Part shown: positions 8,187 through 50,838 of the stretch, one piece after another
Position numbering within the stretch: the first letter of the stretch is position 1
Layout: the number at the start of each line of letters is the position of its first letter
Origin: a virus
DNA length: 50,838 nucleotides
Virus record (IMG/VR): IMGVR_UViG_3300013117_000086
Span: 1-50,838 of that record
Strand: one strand, 5' to 3'
Made by a program: the position numbers and the translations under genes
The notes under the pieces: model-generated
Database searches by the model: none
What the model was told of the DNA's origin: nothing
Seen by the model: the letters and a program-made list of their open reading frames with translations, nothing else

Positions 8187-8242
8187 AGTATATCATATAA
8201 AAAGTTTTATGTATACACTTTTTTTAACTTTTTTTAACTTTT
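8187..8242 (-). promoter_or_regulatory. Leftward early promoter with phased A-tracts (operon 8.1 kb to primase)
   Basis: Read on the minus strand: two full 10-bp CTTTTTTTAA units plus a partial one (8218-8242), then -35 TATACA (8210-8215), an exact 17-bp spacer and -10 TATACT (8187-8192). The same layout recurs at 11420, 43700 and 49527. The T7/A7 runs are spaced by one helical turn, which should bend DNA and act as an UP element. Confidence 0.8.
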
Positions 8243-11419: not shown

Positions 11420-11496
11420 AGTATAGCATAGAAATATAAAAAAGTCTACACTTTTTTTAACTTTTTTTAACTTTTTTTAACTTTTTTTAACTTTTT
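11420..11496 (-). promoter_or_regulatory. Leftward early promoter with four phased A-tract units
   Basis: Minus-strand order: four perfect CTTTTTTTAA units (11451-11490) plus a partial fifth, then -35 TAGACT (11443-11448), 17-bp spacer and -10 TATACT (11420-11425). It drives the 11.4-8.3 kb cluster. The A-tract array lies back to back with the rightward structural promoter and may serve both. Confidence 0.8.
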
Positions 11497-11503
11497 ATGG
11501 ATA

Positions 11504-11532
11504 TTAACATTTTACTTGAATTATGTTAAACT
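11504..11532 (+). promoter_or_regulatory. Rightward structural-operon promoter
   Basis: -35 TTAACA (11504-11509), 17-bp spacer, -10 TAAACT (11527-11532), 28 bp before the terminase small subunit start. The -10 is weaker than in the leftward promoters and lies within a perfect palindrome, which suggests that an activator or repressor times late expression. Confidence 0.55.
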
Positions 11533-11546
11533 TAATTTAAGTTTAA
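11526..11546. promoter_or_regulatory. Palindromic candidate operator over the rightward -10
   Basis: Perfect dyad: TTAAACTTAA, central T, TTAAGTTTAA. It covers the -10 and the transcription start of the rightward promoter and ends before the ribosome site (AGGAGTG) of the first gene. A dimeric DNA-binding protein, such as the helix-turn-helix product of 39640-39915, could bind here. Confidence 0.55.
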
Positions 11547-12532: not shown

Positions 12533-13982
12533 CTTACATAAATTAGCTGTATTTAGTAACAATTATCTAAAAGAGAGAAAACAGGCTAGAACTAGTTTCA
12601 AGCATTATATAATTTTCATGAAAAAACATACATATGAGATGTCGTGGTTTCATGAGGTTATAATAGATGAATTAAATGATTTTATATTAAATGACGTAAA
12701 AAAACTAATGTTGTTTGCACCTCCGCAACATGGTAAAAGCGAACTATCGTCGAGGCTGGCACCTAGTTTCATATTAGGTGTTAACCCATCCTTGAAATTA
12801 GCGATAGTTTGCTATGCCAAAACAATTGCAGAGGATTTCAGTAGTGATGTACAAGAGATAATAAGCTCGCAGAAGTATGGAGAACTTTTCCCTAACACAA
12901 AAATCGATGGTGTCAGAGGGGTAAAAAGAGGGACTCTAAAGAGAAACAATTATATAGTAAAAACTTCTGAGGGTGGTTATTTGATATCGGTAGGGGTGGG
13001 CGGTCCGCTAACCTCAAAATCGGTAGATATCGCTATTATAGATGATTTATACAAGTCAAAAGAGGACGCCTGGTCGTCACTCTACAGAAACAAAGTATGG
13101 AACTGGTATTTCTATGTTTTAGAAAGAAGATTACATAGAAACAGTAAAATACTGATTCTATACACCAGGTGGCATGAGGAAGATTTGGCCGGTAAGCTGT
13201 TAGCCAGAGAGCAGGAAAACTGGCGAAAAGTTGTTTTCGAGATACTGAAAACCGGTAAAATAACAGATAAAAGAGACGTTAGAGAAGTAGGGGAGGCCCT
13301 ATGGCCTACTAAACACACAAAAGAGTCTGCTGAAAGATGGAAAAAACTTGACCCTATAAGCTTTGAGGGTCTGGGTCAACAAAATCCTAAACTCGAAAAA
13401 GGTAAGATGTATCCTCGGCATAAGGTATATGTTGAGTTGCCTGATTTTTCGGATTATCATCATATATACAAGGCCTATGGGGATACAGCCGATGAAGGGG
13501 CCGACTACCTGGCAACTGGATCTTACATAGAGTGTGATGGTTACTGTTATATAACAGAGATATTATACACTCAAGATCCTATGGAAGTTACAGAACCTTT
13601 AACAGCAGCTTTGTATGACAGGAATAATGTGAAACAGGCTTTGATAGAAAGCAATAATGGTGGTAAAGGTTTCGCTAGAGAGGTTAGAAGACATCTAAAA
13701 ACCGACCATAGCAATAATGACTGTGCGGTCAATTGGTTTCATCAAAGCGATAATAAACAGGCTCGTATCTGGTCAAATGCTGCGAAAGTAATGAATCGTG
13801 TAATCTTTCCGGACGGTTGGAAAGACAAATATCCAGACGCTTACGCCAGTTTTGTGAACTTTATGAGGGTGGGAAAAAATGAACATGACGATTTTCAGGA
13901 CTTTTTAACCGGTATAGTAGAGAATATAGAGACTATACCAGATGATGATATAGGGGTATATTTTGATAATGAAATGGTATAA
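12516..13982 (+). CDS. terL: Terminase large subunit (packaging ATPase/nuclease)
   Basis: Motor that pumps DNA into the prohead and cuts concatemers. The N-terminal ATPase has Walker A (FAPPQHGKSE, about residue 70), Walker B (DIAIIDDLYKS) and the coupling motif in ILYTRWHEEDLAG. The C-terminal RNase H-like nuclease shows acidic YGDTADEGADY and the late DDFQDFLTG. Length 488 aa is typical. ATG 12516 follows GGAGTTTATCA inside the end of the small subunit gene. Directly downstream, where the portal normally follows, lies the 488-bp inverted-repeat element. Confidence 0.93.
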   Translation: MGYKNNLHKLAVFSNNYLKERKQARTSFKHYIIFMKKHTYEMSWFHEVIIDELNDFILNDVKKLMLFAPPQHGKSELSSRLAPSFILGVNPSLKLAIVCYAKTIAEDFSSDVQEIISSQKYGELFPNTKIDGVRGVKRGTLKRNNYIVKTSEGGYLISVGVGGPLTSKSVDIAIIDDLYKSKEDAWSSLYRNKVWNWYFYVLERRLHRNSKILILYTRWHEEDLAGKLLAREQENWRKVVFEILKTGKITDKRDVREVGEALWPTKHTKESAERWKKLDPISFEGLGQQNPKLEKGKMYPRHKVYVELPDFSDYHHIYKAYGDTADEGADYLATGSYIECDGYCYITEILYTQDPMEVTEPLTAALYDRNNVKQALIESNNGGKGFAREVRRHLKTDHSNNDCAVNWFHQSDNKQARIWSNAAKVMNRVIFPDGWKDKYPDAYASFVNFMRVGKNEHDDFQDFLTGIVENIETIPDDDIGVYFDNEMV

Positions 13983-13988
13983 TATTAC

Positions 13989-14476
13989 TTTATTTTTTCG
14001 AAAAAAGTCGCCCTCAGAGAAAACGATCTTGTTGTGCGTAAGGAGACGCCGGTATTGAAAGGTATTTAGATAGTAGATTTTACAAGTTCTTTCGAAGAGG
14101 CTTGCGCCGGTGGTTAACAATTGTTAGTTATTTGCATTCCTGGTGACTCAAGGAAATGGTTTTTAGATTATTATAACTGTTATTTAATGTATTCCAGCTA
14201 ACTCAAGGAAATGGTTTAGATATATTTCAGGTACATTATTTTTATACATTTTCATTTCCTTGAGTCACCAGAAACGTAAATATACTATGTATATATTATT
14301 ACAAAACCATTTCCTTGAGTCACCAGGAACACAAAGAAATAATTGTTAACCACATTGGTACTTACAGGTCCAGGATTTTAAGGATTTTTAGGGCAAAATA
14401 TAAGGTTCAGACCCGGCGTCTCCTTACGCACAACAAGATCGTTTTCTCTGAGGGCGACTTTTTTCGAAAAAATAAA
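13989..14476. repeat. Nested inverted-repeat element between terL and portal
   Basis: Outer arms of 64 bp are perfect inverted copies (13989-14052 and 14413-14476). Moving inward: a 13-bp pair built on GTGGTTAACAATT (14110-14122 / 14341-14353), a perfect 27-bp pair containing TGACTCAAGGAAATGG (14137-14163 / 14303-14329), and a third, diverged pair with the same core (14192-14218 / 14253-14274). The CTCAAGGAAATG core thus occurs four times, two in each direction. Each outer arm contains the palindrome TTTTTTCGAAAAAA. The element starts 7 bp after the terL stop and ends about 30 bp before the portal ribosome site. I see no convincing coding frame in it. Origin, packaging signal, mobile MITE-like insertion and RNA-processing signal are all possible. 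Confidence 0.95.
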
Positions 14477-14520
14477 TATATATTAAAATACAGTACTTTT
14501 GTAAGTGGGAGGTGATAAAG

Positions 14521-39639: not shown

Positions 39640-39915
39640 TTACGAGTATTCTTCTATAAGAGCTTTTCTTATAAATTGTTTTCTAATTTTAATATGTTTC
39701 CATTTTTCTTCACCCTCTTTTGTGTACTTTATTTCTTTCTTTTTCAAAAGAGAAGGTACTGTATGGTAACTTACTCCGAATATTTCAGCGATATTTTTTC
39801 TAGTTAAAATTTCATCATAATCTTTTAATATATCGTCTACTATTATTTCTACTTCTGTAAGCTCATTAACCTCACCTGTTACTAGTTTATTTTCTTCTAT
39901 CACATTCTCCTCCAT
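39640..39915 (-). CDS. Helix-turn-helix regulator (91 aa)
   Basis: After an acidic N-terminus there is a clear helix-turn-helix (ILTRKNIAEIFGVSYHTVPS, about 40-60) and a basic wing (KKKEIKYTKEGEEKWKHIK). It has its own promoter 32 bp upstream, and so could act as an autoregulated switch within the replication operon. It is the most obvious transcription-factor-like protein in the genome, so it is a candidate for binding the palindrome at 11526-11546 or the iterons near 44.1 kb. The targets are not known. Confidence 0.75.
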   Translation of the reverse strand: MEENVIEENKLVTGEVNELTEVEIIVDDILKDYDEILTRKNIAEIFGVSYHTVPSLLKKKEIKYTKEGEEKWKHIKIRKQFIRKALIEEYS

Positions 39916-42497: not shown

Positions 42498-43670
42498 TTA
42501 ACCCCCTATTTGTTTTTTACACAAAGGACATGCCTGTCCTTTTAATTCATTGTCTATGTCAGATAATTCATCCGAATAACCTGATAGTTCATCCTCTGAT
42601 GCATGGTACATATTTATTTTCTTTTTTAAATTTCTAAGTGTTTTCACACTATCATAGATATCGCTAGATGAATCAGTTATTTTAGTTACTTCTATATTGC
42701 AATGTAAAAGTTTTTCTTTGTATTCTTTAAGTTTTTCTAATGTAAAATATTCTGCTGTAGAATTAATTCTATGTAAAGTAAAATCATATTTATTCAGACT
42801 TTTCAACTGGTTTAACATAGATAAAGACTTGTATATGCTTTCACAGTCAGTAGACAATGAGTCTAGTAGTTTTATAGCATTTAGACTTATTTTTTCCTTA
42901 TACCTGATAAGTTCTTTTAGTACAGATCGAATATCGTTAAGTTTAGCTACAGTGACTTTGCAGGTTAAATCTTTTATACTAGATAGAAATTTTATGTCTA
43001 CAGACAGTCTATATAACCTGCTGAATATAGTAACGTCGTAATCTAGTTTATCAGGTATCACATGCTGTATTACTTTTAGATTTTTTAACAATAAATGCAA
43101 ATTGTTTGATACTTCTAGTTCGCTTTTTATGATAGACCCGTCTAGGGTTATTTTCGATAAAGCGTCTAAATCATCTAATTTAGAATCTAACTTAACCTGA
43201 TTACTATCTACAGAAGATTTGAGTGATGTTATATCTTTTGATATGTCGGATAAACCTTTCTCTATATTCTCTATATCAAATAACTCGTTTAGTATGTTTA
43301 TCCTCTCTCCAGGTTTATCTGATAACAGATAAATACTATCAAACTGACTATACAAAACTAATTTTAAGTCTATTCTAATTAAATTTTCCAGAGGTTCTTT
43401 CGTGGTACCGACCTCTTTACCATCGAGATACACAAAATATTTAGTACCTTTGCAGTATCTTTCTACGGTAAACTTTTCAGTGATTATTTTTACAGAGCTT
43501 GAGTTCTCTCCGTCAGTGATAAAATTATTCTTACCGCCATGTATAAGCCAATGGATCGCATGGAAGATAGCTGATTTACCGGAACCGTTAGTTCCTGTTA
43601 GAACAGCTAAACTGCTAAATGATATATCTAAGTTTCTGTGACACATGTAATTTTTTATAAGTATCTTCAT
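42498..43670 (-). CDS. sbcC: SbcC/Rad50-like N-terminal ATPase half ending at the zinc hook
   Basis: 390 residues. Walker A is LTGTNGSGKSAIFHAI (about residue 30), the Q-loop region is VLYSQFDSIYLL, followed by about 220 residues of coiled coil. The protein stops 6 residues after CPLCKKQ, the CxxC zinc hook that in normal SbcC lies in the middle of the chain. First gene of its operon, with a strong AGGAGG and the promoter at 43700. The stop is followed at once by the coiled-coil ORF, so this is a clean split rather than random truncation. Confidence 0.85.
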   Translation of the reverse strand: MKILIKNYMCHRNLDISFSSLAVLTGTNGSGKSAIFHAIHWLIHGGKNNFITDGENSSSVKIITEKFTVERYCKGTKYFVYLDGKEVGTTKEPLENLIRIDLKLVLYSQFDSIYLLSDKPGERINILNELFDIENIEKGLSDISKDITSLKSSVDSNQVKLDSKLDDLDALSKITLDGSIIKSELEVSNNLHLLLKNLKVIQHVIPDKLDYDVTIFSRLYRLSVDIKFLSSIKDLTCKVTVAKLNDIRSVLKELIRYKEKISLNAIKLLDSLSTDCESIYKSLSMLNQLKSLNKYDFTLHRINSTAEYFTLEKLKEYKEKLLHCNIEVTKITDSSSDIYDSVKTLRNLKKKINMYHASEDELSGYSDELSDIDNELKGQACPLCKKQIGG

Positions 43671-43699
43671 TTTTACTAATCACCTCCTAACAGTGAGTT

Positions 43700-43764
43700 A
43701 TTTTAACATAAAAAAGACTGTTTGTCTACACTTTTTTTAACTTTTTTTAACTTTTTTTAACTTA
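43700..43764 (-). promoter_or_regulatory. Leftward early promoter of the recombination/replication operon
   Basis: Minus strand: three perfect CTTTTTTTAA units (43731-43760), -35 TAGACA (43723-43728), 17-bp spacer, -10 TAAAAT (43700-43705). Same architecture as at 8187, 11420 and 49527. It drives the SbcC-to-dUTPase operon. Confidence 0.8.
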
Positions 43765-44259
43765 ACTACTCTTTCGTTTAGCAATTGTAAGTATACTTAT
43801 TTTTTTTTTTTTTTATTTATTTTTTCATTCCCTTGAGTCAATAGAAATGTATTATATTAAGTATATATGAAATATATGATACATATAGTAAAAGTGTAAA
43901 TAATTTATAAAAAGTTAAGAAAAGTGTTTCTGTCGTTGAGTACATGTTTTTTACCTTTTTTAATTTTTTACTTTTTAAAACTTTTTTTTCTGGAAAAACT
44001 GGTACACAGATTTTCGAAGTTTAAGAAAAGTTAACAAAAGTTATAAAAACTATTCGTAAAAAGTTAATAAAAGTGTAAAAATACAGTAAAAGTGTGTACC
44101 ACCTATGTACCACCTATGTACCACTTAGCTTTAAAATGTACCAGTTTTGAGGGTAAATGTACCACTTATTAGACCGGTTTACTAAAAAACTGCGAGATCG
44201 TGAAAACGGGTGCGAACCCAACGACATTTTTGTTATATATGAAATATATGATAGAACCT
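43765..44259. other. Origin-like intergenic region with iterons and repeats
   Basis: A 495-bp AT-rich non-coding region. It contains a T14 run (43801-43814), a diverged copy of the TTGAGTCA core of the 14-kb element (43826-43850), AAAAGTTA/AAAAGTGTAA-type short repeats, an inverted TGGTACA (44000-44006), five direct TGTACCA iterons at 44095, 44106, 44117, 44137 and 44158 (spacings 11, 11, 20, 21), and an exact 20-bp direct repeat (43862-43881 and 44234-44253) framing most of it. Phased iterons, AT-rich DNA and position between early operons suggest a replication origin; a regulator-binding array is the alternative. Confidence 0.6.
44095..44164 (+). repeat. TGTACCA iteron array (5 copies)
   Basis: The first three copies form a tandem repeat with 11-bp unit TGTACCACCTA (44095-44127, last unit one mismatch); two more stand 20 and 21 bp further on. 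All five face one side of the helix. A sixth, inverted copy is at 44000-44006. Confidence 0.85.
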
Positions 44260-45168
44260 TTACATAAATGGTGTTATAAATAACCAACTTCCATCACTTA
44301 ATTTTTTTATCATACGGTCATATGTGTAATATGTAGTTTCTTCACACACAATAAAACCCAATTGATCTCGAGTATATACTTTAAATGAATCCATCATAAC
44401 AGATAAGTCTTTGTTATGTTTGTAAACTAGATATTTTCTCTCTTCTGGCGATTTTTCTGGCTCTGTTTTTACATTTATGTAGATATCTATATTCTTTTTT
44501 ACAATATTAAATATTTCTTTTTGTAATTCAAAACTAGTGATACCAGCACTGTTCAATTTATTCAATATAGTTTTGAACAGGTTGTAGGTGTACACTTTAG
44601 TTTTTAACTCATTAACTATAGTAGAACTGCTTTTCGCGTAGAATTTACTAATCTGTCCATAATCTTTTATGACAGCAGTAATGAATAAATTAGATATTTT
44701 AATATCTTCCTCTGTTAATAGTTCTGGATTCATACTACATAATCTATCAATATTAGAAACCTTTGTATACAAATATTTTTCACCCTGCAGTATAATACTA
44801 TACCATCCGTTCAAATGTGATTTATTTTCTTTAACAGTTTCTAAACGTACTAACATTCCTGGTTTTAACTCGCCCGGCTCTTTAACTACTATATATTTTC
44901 TAATATAATCCTCAGAATCTTCTTCCGGTAAATCTTCTTCCGGTAAATCTTCTTCCGGTAAATCTTCTTCCGGTAAATCTTCTTCCGGAAGAAATAAACT
45001 ACCGTGAATTACTGGAAATTCAAAAGTAAATCCGTCTTTCATTCTTAAACTAGCTACTGATCTATTTTCCGATAATATAACCTTTTCTACATCATCTAAC
45101 CTATACTTTGTAGGTTTCTTTTTACGTTCCAGCAAAAGAAACGCGGCTAACCTTTCCATATTAGTCAT
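44260..45168 (-). CDS. Hypothetical protein with DLPEE repeats (302 aa)
   Basis: A basic N-terminal domain (MTNMERLAAFLLLERKKK) is followed by an acidic linker of five DLPEE/DLPEED units, a beta-rich domain (VVKEPGELKPGMLVRLETV...LNGWYSIILQG) and a C-terminal helical domain. The SH3-like segment is similar in style to proteins at 45590-46330. ATG 45168 follows GAGGAGGGTAAC; the longer upstream frame overlaps the zinc-ribbon gene that is read in another frame. Function unknown. The repeat number is likely to vary. Confidence 0.7.
   Translation of the reverse strand: MTNMERLAAFLLLERKKKPTKYRLDDVEKVILSENRSVASLRMKDGFTFEFPVIHGSLFLPEEDLPEEDLPEEDLPEEDLPEEDSEDYIRKYIVVKEPGELKPGMLVRLETVKENKSHLNGWYSIILQGEKYLYTKVSNIDRLCSMNPELLTEEDIKISNLFITAVIKDYGQISKFYAKSSSTIVNELKTKVYTYNLFKTILNKLNSAGITSFELQKEIFNIVKKNIDIYINVKTEPEKSPEERKYLVYKHNKDLSVMMDSFKVYTRDQLGFIVCEETTYYTYDRMIKKLSDGSWLFITPFM
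44921..44990. repeat. 15-bp coding tandem repeat (DLPEE)
   Basis: Four perfect copies of TCTTCCGGTAAATCT plus a partial fifth, coding on the minus strand for DLPEE. The unit is a multiple of 3, so copy-number change keeps the frame and alters only linker length. Confidence 0.95.
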
Positions 45169-45280
45169 TGTTACCCTCCTCTGATTTTTCATCCTTGCAG
45201 CTACAGTCAGAACACATACCCTCGTAGTATATAAACTCACTGTTAGGTATTATCTTTTTACATTTCTTACATAAACGCAT
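45161..45280 (-). CDS. Micro zinc-ribbon protein (39 aa)
   Basis: MRLCKKCKKIIPNSEF then MCSDCSCKDEKSEE: two CxxC pairs with zinc-ribbon spacing and an acidic tail. ATG 45280 follows AAGGAG. The stop overlaps the next ATG by 8 bp, and its last codons contain that gene's GAGGAGGG ribosome site. One of about seven cysteine-rich mini-proteins in this genome. Confidence 0.65.
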   Translation of the reverse strand: MRLCKKCKKIIPNSEFIYYEGMCSDCSCKDEKSEEGNND

Positions 45281-46339: not shown

Positions 46340-47154
46340 CTATAAATCCAAAGTTTCCTGAAATGTGACATCTTCAGCATCTTCTACCCCGAGTTTACCG
46401 CCTTTAATAAAATACTGGTGGATCAGAGTGTTTATGCTTCTAGCACCTACAGTATTATTGTCATAGTTTTTAGTTATAAAATCTTTTACCGTTTCTATAA
46501 CTTCAGTTTTGTTTACTTTACTGAATATTTTTAAGTAATCATTTAGTAAACTGCTATTATCTAAAATCTCACATAGATCTTTAAGCGATAGTTTTTCTGT
46601 ATTGTAAATAAGACCTACTCGGCCTAAAAACTCAGTTTTAACTCCAAATTTTCTTAATTTATCTAAATTTATGTGCGGATCATTATTAAAAGCCCCTGCG
46701 AAAATAAACAGTGTTTTACTTATATCTATATCATTGTATTTACCGTAGTCTCCGAAAACCTGCGTGGTAGGTGCCTCTAAGAGTTTCAAAAACTCATTTT
46801 GCACTCCTGTGGTTACCTCATTAGCTAACTCCCCGTTGTTACCCGATATATAAAGTTTATCCCATTCATCTACGAATATGATCAGCGGCAATCCTGTATA
46901 CTTTCCAGCTGAAGCTAAAACTTTACTCAAACTATTACCGGAAGTACCTTCCTTGGTTATTTGTGCTGCATTTATTTCTATATAAGGTAGTTTTTTAGCT
47001 GCACAACATTCTTTAGTTATATATATGTTTTACCTGACCCAGATGGTCCTGCTAGTACGAAATGAGGTCTTACCGCACCCTTACCAGCTTTAAAAATATC
47101 TAAAACCCTGTTTAATTCCTCTGTTAATTTTTCCTGCCCTATCACTGTTTTCAT
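46340..47154 (-). pseudogene. ClpX-like AAA+ ATPase, interrupted at a TA repeat
   Basis: From ATG 47154 the frame gives VIGQEKLTEELNRVLDIF and Walker A (LAGPSGSGKTYI), then stops at 47017. The -1 frame continues ITKECCAAKKLPYIEIN, Walker B (LIIFVDEWDKL), sensor 1 (TLFIFAGAFN), arginine finger (KTEFLGRVG) and sensor 2 (VGARSINTL), to 46340. The break is in a TATATATAT run (47018-47026). Deleting one TA joins both into a 270-residue ClpX-like protein without the N-terminal zinc domain. It might redirect ClpP or remodel a phage complex. Mutation, phase variation and sequencing error cannot be separated here. Confidence 0.8.
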
Positions 47155-49367: not shown

Positions 49368-49493
49368 CTATTTTATATCGCAAGTAGCTAGCCCTTGCGA
49401 TTCACAGCATTTGCAGCATATGTTTTTACAGAAATGTTCTTCTTCATGTAAAACTATATCTGCACTACAGTTTTGGCAATTAAATTCTCTCAT
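49368..49493 (-). CDS. Micro zinc-knuckle protein (41 aa), paralogue of the 8.4-kb one
   Basis: MREFNCQNCSADIVLHEEEH, then FCKNICCKCCES and a final Cys. The CxxC...CxxxICCxCC pattern is the same as in the protein at 8339-8449. First gene after the promoter at 49527. ATG 49493 has an AAGGAGCTGATTTAA site. Possibly an early host-interaction protein; no direct evidence. Confidence 0.65.
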   Translation of the reverse strand: MREFNCQNCSADIVLHEEEHFCKNICCKCCESQGLATCDIK

Positions 49494-49526
49494 TTAAATC
49501 AGCTCCTTAATCTTTATTACTCCCAG

Positions 49527-49602
49527 AGTATACCATAAAAGATAGTTTATGTCTACACTTTTTTTAACTTTTTTTAACTTTTTTTAACTTTTTTAACTTT
49601 TT
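49527..49602 (-). promoter_or_regulatory. Leftward early promoter of the 49.5-44.3 kb operon
   Basis: Minus strand: three perfect CTTTTTTTAA units (49558-49587) plus a 9-bp variant, -35 TAGACA (49550-49555), 17-bp spacer, -10 TATACT (49527-49532). It lies between the primase terminator and the first micro-gene, and is the clearest member of the promoter family. Confidence 0.85.
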
Positions 49603-49615
49603 ATTTATTTATAAA

Positions 49616-49644
49616 ATAAAAGCCTGATTATATCAGGCTTTTAT
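49616..49644 (-). terminator. Rho-independent terminator of the primase operon
   Basis: Perfect 13-bp stem ATAAAAGCCTGAT / ATCAGGCTTTTAT with 3-nt loop TAT, followed on the minus strand by TTTTATAAATAAAT. The stop codon of the primase-helicase (49633-49635) lies inside the stem. It separates this operon from the next promoter. Confidence 0.88.
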
Positions 49645-50838
49645 CGTTACCAATCTCGGTCTTTCTCCGTTATCTTTTTGAACTCTTTTCTCTTTTAAAT
49701 TATCTCGACCTAGCAGATATTTTATAAATGTACGCTGCTTTACAGCAGAATATTCTTCATTGTTACACCACTGTTTATATGCTACGAATAAGCTGGTTTT
49801 AGGTACTCCACCTTCTTTTTTAGTACCTTCTTGAATAAACCTTAATCCCTCAAATCCCAACCATTCGTAAACATTAGAATTGAATTCCTGAACTTTAGTT
49901 ATATTATCTTTATAATTAGATAAGTAATAATTACTTAGATCACAAAAATTAAGTTTTATTAACTCCATCAAACCTTGCAGCATAAACCCTACCAAACTAT
50001 CCGTATCATCTGAAAACATCTGTTCATAATCATGTGATGGTAGGTCAGGTCGTGCTATCTCCTCGCTTAAAGGGAAAACCGCCAGCCTTCTAGTTACCCC
50101 ACCGTCGGCAGATATTTTTGGTATGTCGTTAGACATAGCTACATGTTTCGCTAAAGGTATTTCATATCTGTGATTTTCGAATTTAGCTTCTACCTTCCAA
50201 CGTTCCCTAGATATAACCGACTTGAACGCCTCTGAGTTAATCCTGTCATCTAACTCAGTAGTTATATTTAACAGTGCTTTAGACAGACTACCTCCGCCAA
50301 ACTTATCATCTAGAGATGATAAAGGAAACGCCGTTATCATAGAATTAGATCCTATGTCAAATATGTTACTGAGGCTTTTAGCTAAAGTAGATTTTCCCAT
50401 ACTACCTTTATATGAATACAAACATAGCATAATGGATGGACTGTAAGACGGTACTAAAAGATTACCGAAAAATATTTTTATGAATCTTAATGCGTCCTCG
50501 TCAAATTTAGTCTTAAACCAATCTAATATGATCGAATCCTCTTTTATCTTCATGATTTCAGGCCGGAAATTAGTCTGTAAACTGTATAAAGCCTTGTCAT
50601 GAGAGTCAAAATCTTTAGTGAATGTAAAACTAGCATCTTTATTTATGTACATAGTACCATTTTTAAATACTATCGGTATCTTACTATGATAAGTTCTGTC
50701 TCTTATAATATCATAAGATAAATAATTATCGTAAGCGGAGTCATTCGCAAATATTCTTGAATATATATCAAAAGTATCTCTGAGTGTTTTAAAGTCCTCA
50801 GGTTTCAAAACCTTAGCCAATTTGTTTTTATAATAAGC
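49633..50838 (-). CDS. Primase-helicase, C-terminal D5/P4-type helicase half
   Basis: Continuation of the Prim-Pol gene of 1-1203; the last 18 bp repeat the window start. The C-terminal 395 residues are an SF3/D5-like helicase as in P4-type primases: Walker A YKGSMGKSTLAKSLSNIF, Walker B-like ITTELDDRI and the motif MSNDIPKISADGGVTRRLAV. A winged-helix-like end (GGVPKTSLFVAYKQWCNNEE) follows. An apparent TTG start at 50820 is an artefact of the cut; the real start is ATG 1203. The complete protein couples primer synthesis and DNA unwinding. Confidence 0.92.
   Translation of the reverse strand, partial: AYYKNKLAKVLKPEDFKTLRDTFDIYSRIFANDSAYDNYLSYDIIRDRTYHSKIPIVFKNGTMYINKDASFTFTKDFDSHDKALYSLQTNFRPEIMKIKEDSIILDWFKTKFDEDALRFIKIFFGNLLVPSYSPSIMLCLYSYKGSMGKSTLAKSLSNIFDIGSNSMITAFPLSSLDDKFGGGSLSKALLNITTELDDRINSEAFKSVISRERWKVEAKFENHRYEIPLAKHVAMSNDIPKISADGGVTRRLAVFPLSEEIARPDLPSHDYEQMFSDDTDSLVGFMLQGLMELIKLNFCDLSNYYLSNYKDNITKVQEFNSNVYEWLGFEGLRFIQEGTKKEGGVPKTSLFVAYKQWCNNEEYSAVKQRTFIKYLLGRDNLKEKRVQKDNGERPRLVTIKA
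50821..50838. repeat. Terminal overlap of a circular contig (right copy)
   Basis: Identical to bases 1-18; see the left copy. The overlap lies inside the primase-helicase gene. Confidence 0.9.

Follow-up and report, generated by a model that had tools for sequence, protein, structure and literature searches.

A non-coding gap with phased TGTACCA repeats is a candidate replication origin in an uncultured phage and shares a site with a distant 506-bp palindrome

The window analysed here is the whole 50,838-nucleotide stretch of the IMG/VR virus record IMGVR_UViG_3300013117_000086. An 18-bp repeat is common to its ends (1-18 and 50821-50838) and a 796-aa primase gene runs on in frame across them; the record was therefore treated as a circular phage genome of 50,820 bp. 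The locus under study is a non-coding gap of 589 bp (43671-44259, GC 0.25), the second longest of the 13 gaps of at least 120 bp that lie between ORFs of at least 70 aa, and it contains the whole of the element described below. Genes run leftwards on both sides of 44 kb, and rightwards for the terminase to tail genes (11.5-34 kb). The gap heads a block of replication genes for sbcC, sbcD, HTH, exonuclease, resolvase and UvsW-like helicase functions, the first of which to be read from a promoter in the gap is the sbcC-like gene (42498-43670, minus strand; PHROG 77, AAA_23). The ORF on the other side (44260-45240) is without a family match. Near 44924 this ORF has an LPEED tandem repeat, and its start looks likelier to be at about 45159, behind AGGAGG, than at the listed GTG. 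Further on, a ClpX-like AAA fragment of 196 aa (46340-46930) has 49-58% identity to proteins of many unrelated phages. An Rfam scan of the window was without a match.

Two proteins of this genome are candidates for binding at the gap. The primase-helicase, the candidate initiator, is encoded on the minus strand, with DUF5906 and Pox_D5 domains in its C-terminal half (49633-50838; the gene continues at 1-1203) and a weak Prim-Pol match, below the cut-off at E 0.038, in its N-terminal half (1-1203). The replication protein combines an SF3-type helicase (DUF5906/Pox_D5) with what is probably a Prim-Pol domain. The candidate alternative binder is a small HTH_17-type protein within the replication block (39640-39915, minus strand, assigned by family match), which also has a weak match to an excisionase family.

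Five TGTACCA repeats are present on the plus strand of the gap (44095-44164), starting at 44095, 44106, 44117, 44137 and 44158, and a motif search finds an inverted copy at 44000-44006 on the minus strand. An earlier note on this DNA had described five direct repeats at spacings of 11, 11, 20 and 21 bp and the inverted copy at 44000, all of which are there. At five copies per 90 bp, TGTACCA is the densest cluster in the window of any 7-mer using all four bases; 60 Markov sequences had at most three copies of such a 7-mer per 90 bp. The only other place in the window with four or more copies of one four-base 7-mer is the repeat-bearing ORF near 44924, making the TGTACCA cluster the strongest of its kind in non-coding DNA. 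The copies keep to a phase of about 10.5 bp, with R = 0.97 and p = 0.004 when compared with random spacings of 9-25 bp. The first three could be the product of one tandem duplication, as their spacers are also shared, and the remaining three, including the inverted copy, are without shared spacers. The gap array thus has the clustered short direct repeats in helical phase that are seen at iteron origins. A 20-bp direct repeat, TATATATGAAATATATGATA, frames the iteron-bearing interval, with identical plus-strand copies at 43862-43881 and 44234-44253 in the repeat search, as the same note had reported. No other place in the window is within three mismatches of it, and none of 100 shuffles had two such places.

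The gap is linked by sequence to a second locus. A palindrome of 506 bp (13980-14485), with the terminase large subunit gene on one side and the portal gene on the other, has 80-nt arms that are 93% complementary and a fold z of -23; in a search limited to 600 bp, no other palindrome in the genome comes near it in size. The TTGAGTCA site has exactly five good copies in the genome, four of which are in this palindrome (14144 and 14199 on the minus strand, 14255 and 14310 on the plus strand) and one of which is in the gap. Each half of the palindrome contains two copies of this 26-bp site, 55 bp apart and facing outwards from the AT-rich centre. When a weight matrix was built from the four 14-kb copies only, the gap copy at 43822 scored 21.1 bits and the next place in the window 5.0. 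None of 1000 dinucleotide shuffles of the gap reached 21.1 bits (best 8.4), and the best score in 30 Markov sequences of the length of the whole window was 17.9.

Local alignment of the two gaps identifies a 62-bp block (43807-43868, plus strand) in common with the right half of the palindrome. It pairs with 14236-14296, at the palindrome centre, with 50 of 63 columns identical and a score of 58, which none of 1000 shuffled gap pairs matched (best 41). The block includes the core TTCCCTTGAGTCA at 43828-43840, and the core copy with flanks like those of the 14-kb copy that had been noted earlier is therefore borne out. The link between the loci is statistically firm, so it is likely, judging from the sequences, that the gap and the 14-kb element are read by one shared recognition protein. 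TGTACCA itself is absent from 13980-14485 by motif search. The 14-kb element had no match among phages by blastn, nor did the TTGAGTCA site pattern in IMG/VR.

The DNA beside the array is easily melted and AT-rich, a further feature of iteron origins. The 400 bp from 43698 to 44097 are the least stable stretch of that length in the circularised genome, and the gap region ranks second at 200 bp and third at 100 bp. The raw GC skew has its minimum near 11.5 kb and its maximum near 34 kb. Both are at gene-strand switches, so an origin at 44 kb cannot be read from the raw skew, and its extremes were dropped as a means of locating one. The cumulative skew had been put forward as a check of the origin; in the leftward genes the third-position skew has no switch across 44 kb for G/C (GC3 p = 0.27) and shifts only weakly for A/T (AT3 p = 0.03, uncorrected). 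DnaA boxes with zero or one mismatch are not found in the gap, and a DnaA-dependent origin was rejected on this basis.

The gap also contains a strong promoter. On the minus strand at 43700-43763, at the edge of the gap and before the sbcC operon, there is an A7GTT array followed by GTGTAGACA, a 17-bp spacer and an extended -10 TAAAAT, and then the ribosome site GGAGGTGAT. A promoter scan lists this same stretch, as TAGACA/TAAAAT with 17 bp between them and TG before. The layout recurs at 49531-49590, 11444-11533 and 8191-8242, such that there are four leftward promoters of the form (A7GTT)n-GTGTAGACA-17 bp-TATAAT-like, with A7GTT units of 10 bp and with GTGTATACA instead at 8.2 kb. Their position before replication genes suggests that they are used early. 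The module of A-tracts plus GTGTTGACA is found in unrelated phages as well, in 12 IMG/VR stretches with TTGACA, the pattern having required a -35-like end.

This bears on the A-tract words, the abundance of which had been taken as part of the origin. There are indeed many: AAAAGTTA has four exact copies on the plus strand of the interval, together with four of AAAAGTGT, and 12 of the 63 genome copies of AAAAGT[TG] fall in the 589-bp gap. Comparison with the promoters changes their meaning, however, as the early promoters of this phage have these words as their upstream module. Those at 43888-44095, often 10 bp apart, are on the plus strand, opposite to that of the promoter, and are without a -35 or -10 behind them.

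Because so strong a promoter lies in the same gap, the main rival explanation is that the gap controls transcription. TGTACCA and the TTGAGTCA site would then be operators of a phage regulator, acting on the sbcC promoter and the 14-kb late genes, and no replication would start here. The strong early promoter, with the A-tract words as its upstream module, is consistent with this. So is the palindrome copy at 14255, where TTGAGT is followed after 17 bp by TACTAT, and where the site could be a -35 box. Some 370 bp, however, separate the promoter from the array upstream of it. The site copy at 43828 faces away from sbcC, and the plus strand of the gap is without the start of any ORF of at least 70 aa. 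The other three early promoters have neither TGTACCA nor the TTGAGTCA site. Control of transcription is a serious possibility, which we consider distinctly less probable than an origin.

Arrays of TGTACCA are found in other phages. In IMG/VR, 15 records have between them 16 stretches with three copies in 11-bp steps, counted as 12 independent stretches because L062/L065 and L067/L068/L074/L075 repeat each other. These arrays (L061-L076) are like the gap in having the same heptamer at 9-11 bp spacing, some with opposed arms around a core, and the protein similarity of the stretches compared to this phage is limited to terminase or portal. They are unlike it in that half of them adjoin tyrosine integrases, 6 of the 12 independent stretches being within about 0.6 kb of a PF00589 gene (L061, L064, L066, L070, L072 and L073). 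The arrays next to integrases are perhaps arm-type or excisionase sites of attP.

Two further arrays have origin-like surroundings. That of L075 (2997-3025) comes directly after a Prim-Pol/DUF5906 primase gene and is followed by a gene with DnaA domain IV. The latter (L075:2454-2861) encodes a 135-aa protein with this domain (PF08299) and comes after the array and the primase gene. The arrays of L069/L109 (L109:4226-4505) flank three DnaA boxes (TGTGGATAA) on both sides, and another array of the same phage (L072) is near the integrase. No neighbour identified at the other four independent stretches was informative, and L076 resembles a coding repeat. DUF5906 was found in 6 of the 15 array records and PF00589 in 7, with both in two. 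The TGTACCA array therefore recurs among phages in two settings or more and is not specific to origins. A literature search for TGTACCA or TGTACC with integrase terms gave no title or abstract naming such an array among the matches listed, a weak negative.

In light of the integrase neighbours, the array in the gap might instead be an attachment or recombination region, with the repeats serving as arm-type or excisionase sites of an integrase that has been lost or is not recognised. The 6 of 12 independent arrays beside PF00589 genes are in keeping with this, as is the weak excisionase-family match of the HTH_17 protein. The window itself, however, has no PF00589 match at E <=1, with the same search positive in 14 of 14 control genomes, which makes this explanation unlikely. 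With no detectable tyrosine integrase here, the replication setting is favoured for the gap array; the origin-like surroundings of the L075 and L109 arrays, and the DUF5906 primase of this phage, also favour the origin.

Phased heptamers of this kind resemble ribbon-helix-helix operators, so that a small phage protein could also bind the array as a packaging site or as a centromere-like partition site. The arrays of L062 and L069 are within about 2.5 kb of terminase matches, as packaging would have it. In this genome, however, the terminase is 30 kb away, and ParA or ParR were not found among the 20 window proteins scanned; a partition or packaging role is accordingly very unlikely.

The DUF5906 primase family was ruled out as a predictor of the arrays, there being TGTACCA pairs in none of 12 other records, 10 of which were chosen by primase similarity, some matching the Prim-Pol part only, and 2 by the replication block. 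The background was one pair each in 2 of 31 unrelated IMG/VR records. The primase of this phage has no detectable relation to those of the TGTACCA phages. HTH_17 is not diagnostic as a common array binder, being over the cut-off in 2 of the 15 array records, and a search of 17 other records gave no match to the HTH protein of the window. Triple TGTACCA was found in 1 of 398 Bacillota genomes, and no viral enrichment is therefore claimed. A broader idea would be that TGTACCA in a phase of about 10.5 bp is one recognition code, used at the origins and integrase attachment regions of unrelated phages with a single type of filament-forming DNA-binding module as its reader, and that it is paired in this phage with a second site tying the origin to the 506-bp palindrome 30 kb away. 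This is speculative and we hold it to be improbable.

Relatives of the phage are distant. The gap region has no nucleotide match in phages or in plasmids, and IMG/VR protein scans with the capsid and polymerase proteins gave no relative. A replication block with the sbcC-like gene, ATPase, sbcD, resolvase, UvsW-like helicase and polA is common to distant relatives at 22-38% protein identity. They comprise two phages, Bacillus phage vB_BboS-125 and one from IMG/VR, together with loci of Paenibacillus, Sutcliffiella and a Firmicutes MAG. Some of them lack a detected copy of one or more of these genes. Seven loci with much of the block were reached via sbcD (L026, L040, L042-L046), and L007 makes eight. 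Phage vB_BboS-125 is like this phage in having all six of these genes and an HTH_17 protein, and unlike it in having no TGTACCA pairs and no detectable primase relative.

None of the eight loci has an iteron cluster near sbcC. Absence of the iterons from close relatives had been named as grounds for abandoning the origin; they are missing from distant ones, which goes part of the way, but at only 22-38% protein identity with the phage these are not the close relatives that were meant. Since the relatives are distant and no primase relative was detected in the two phages of this set that were tested, this absence says little.

Taken together, the best explanation is that the gap is an initiator-bound origin and that the palindrome is a second site of one shared protein, in a layout like that of Bacillus phage SPP1. 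We give this roughly even odds (about 0.5). The origin proposed in the earlier note stands insofar as the iterons, the least stable 400 bp and the long gap heading the replication block fit it best; the TTGAGTCA site, present only here and in the palindrome, is a further point in its favour. It is weakened by the lack of a GC3 skew switch at 44 kb, by the AAAAGTTA words being a promoter module and by the arrays that adjoin integrases. Also counting against it are the lack of DnaA boxes in the gap and of TGTACCA in the palindrome, the absence of such repeats from the distant relatives and from the 10 records with similar primases, and a primase with no detectable relation to those of the TGTACCA phages.

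The gap would be an origin used early in infection. The initiator, which may be the primase-SF3 helicase itself or a small helper, for instance the HTH_17 protein, would bind the phased TGTACCA sites, all on one face of the helix. The least stable 400 bp next to them would melt, and the helicase-primase would load. The TTGAGTCA site and its four copies in the palindrome would be bound by another protein or by a further domain of the initiator; the palindrome itself may be an additional origin or may block forks, as has been proposed for SPP1 oriR.

To our knowledge, uncultured phages that encode primase-SF3 helicase proteins have few known origins. The candidate described here is small, sharply bounded and testable. 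If the site common to the iteron locus and the giant palindrome is a binding site, this would make for a simple model in which one protein starts replication and blocks or restarts forks elsewhere. The recurring TGTACCA arrays provide a sequence handle on similar loci in other phages.

Two known systems are relevant. Origins of the pRN1 type belong to Prim-Pol, SF3 helicase and winged-helix replication proteins. In the description of pRN1, a stem-loop is directly 3' of the replication gene, and Prim-Pol/SF3 proteins assemble at stem-loops (PMC4234260), which provides a second model for the mechanism. This phage is similar in having a replication protein with an SF3-type helicase, probably with Prim-Pol, and a large stem-loop in its genome. 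Unlike in pRN1, the palindrome is about 15 kb from the replication gene on the circle; there is no large stem-loop 3' of the primase gene, arms in 49384-49640 being at most 13 nt. In SPP1, as described in PMC6316719, oriR is in one of the longest gaps and has been proposed as a second origin or fork-blocking site, and the two origins, 12-13 kb apart, have the same direct repeats. The loci compared here differ in being about 29.6 kb apart in a 50.8-kb circle with only the TTGAGTCA site in common; the direct-repeat array is not present at both. The likeness to oriL and oriR (PMC6316719) is in having two distant AT-rich loci, among early and late genes, with direct repeats and a single protein presumed to bind both, and in this phage a single motif, the TTGAGTCA site, is found at both loci and only there, at 14.1-14.3 and 43.8 kb.
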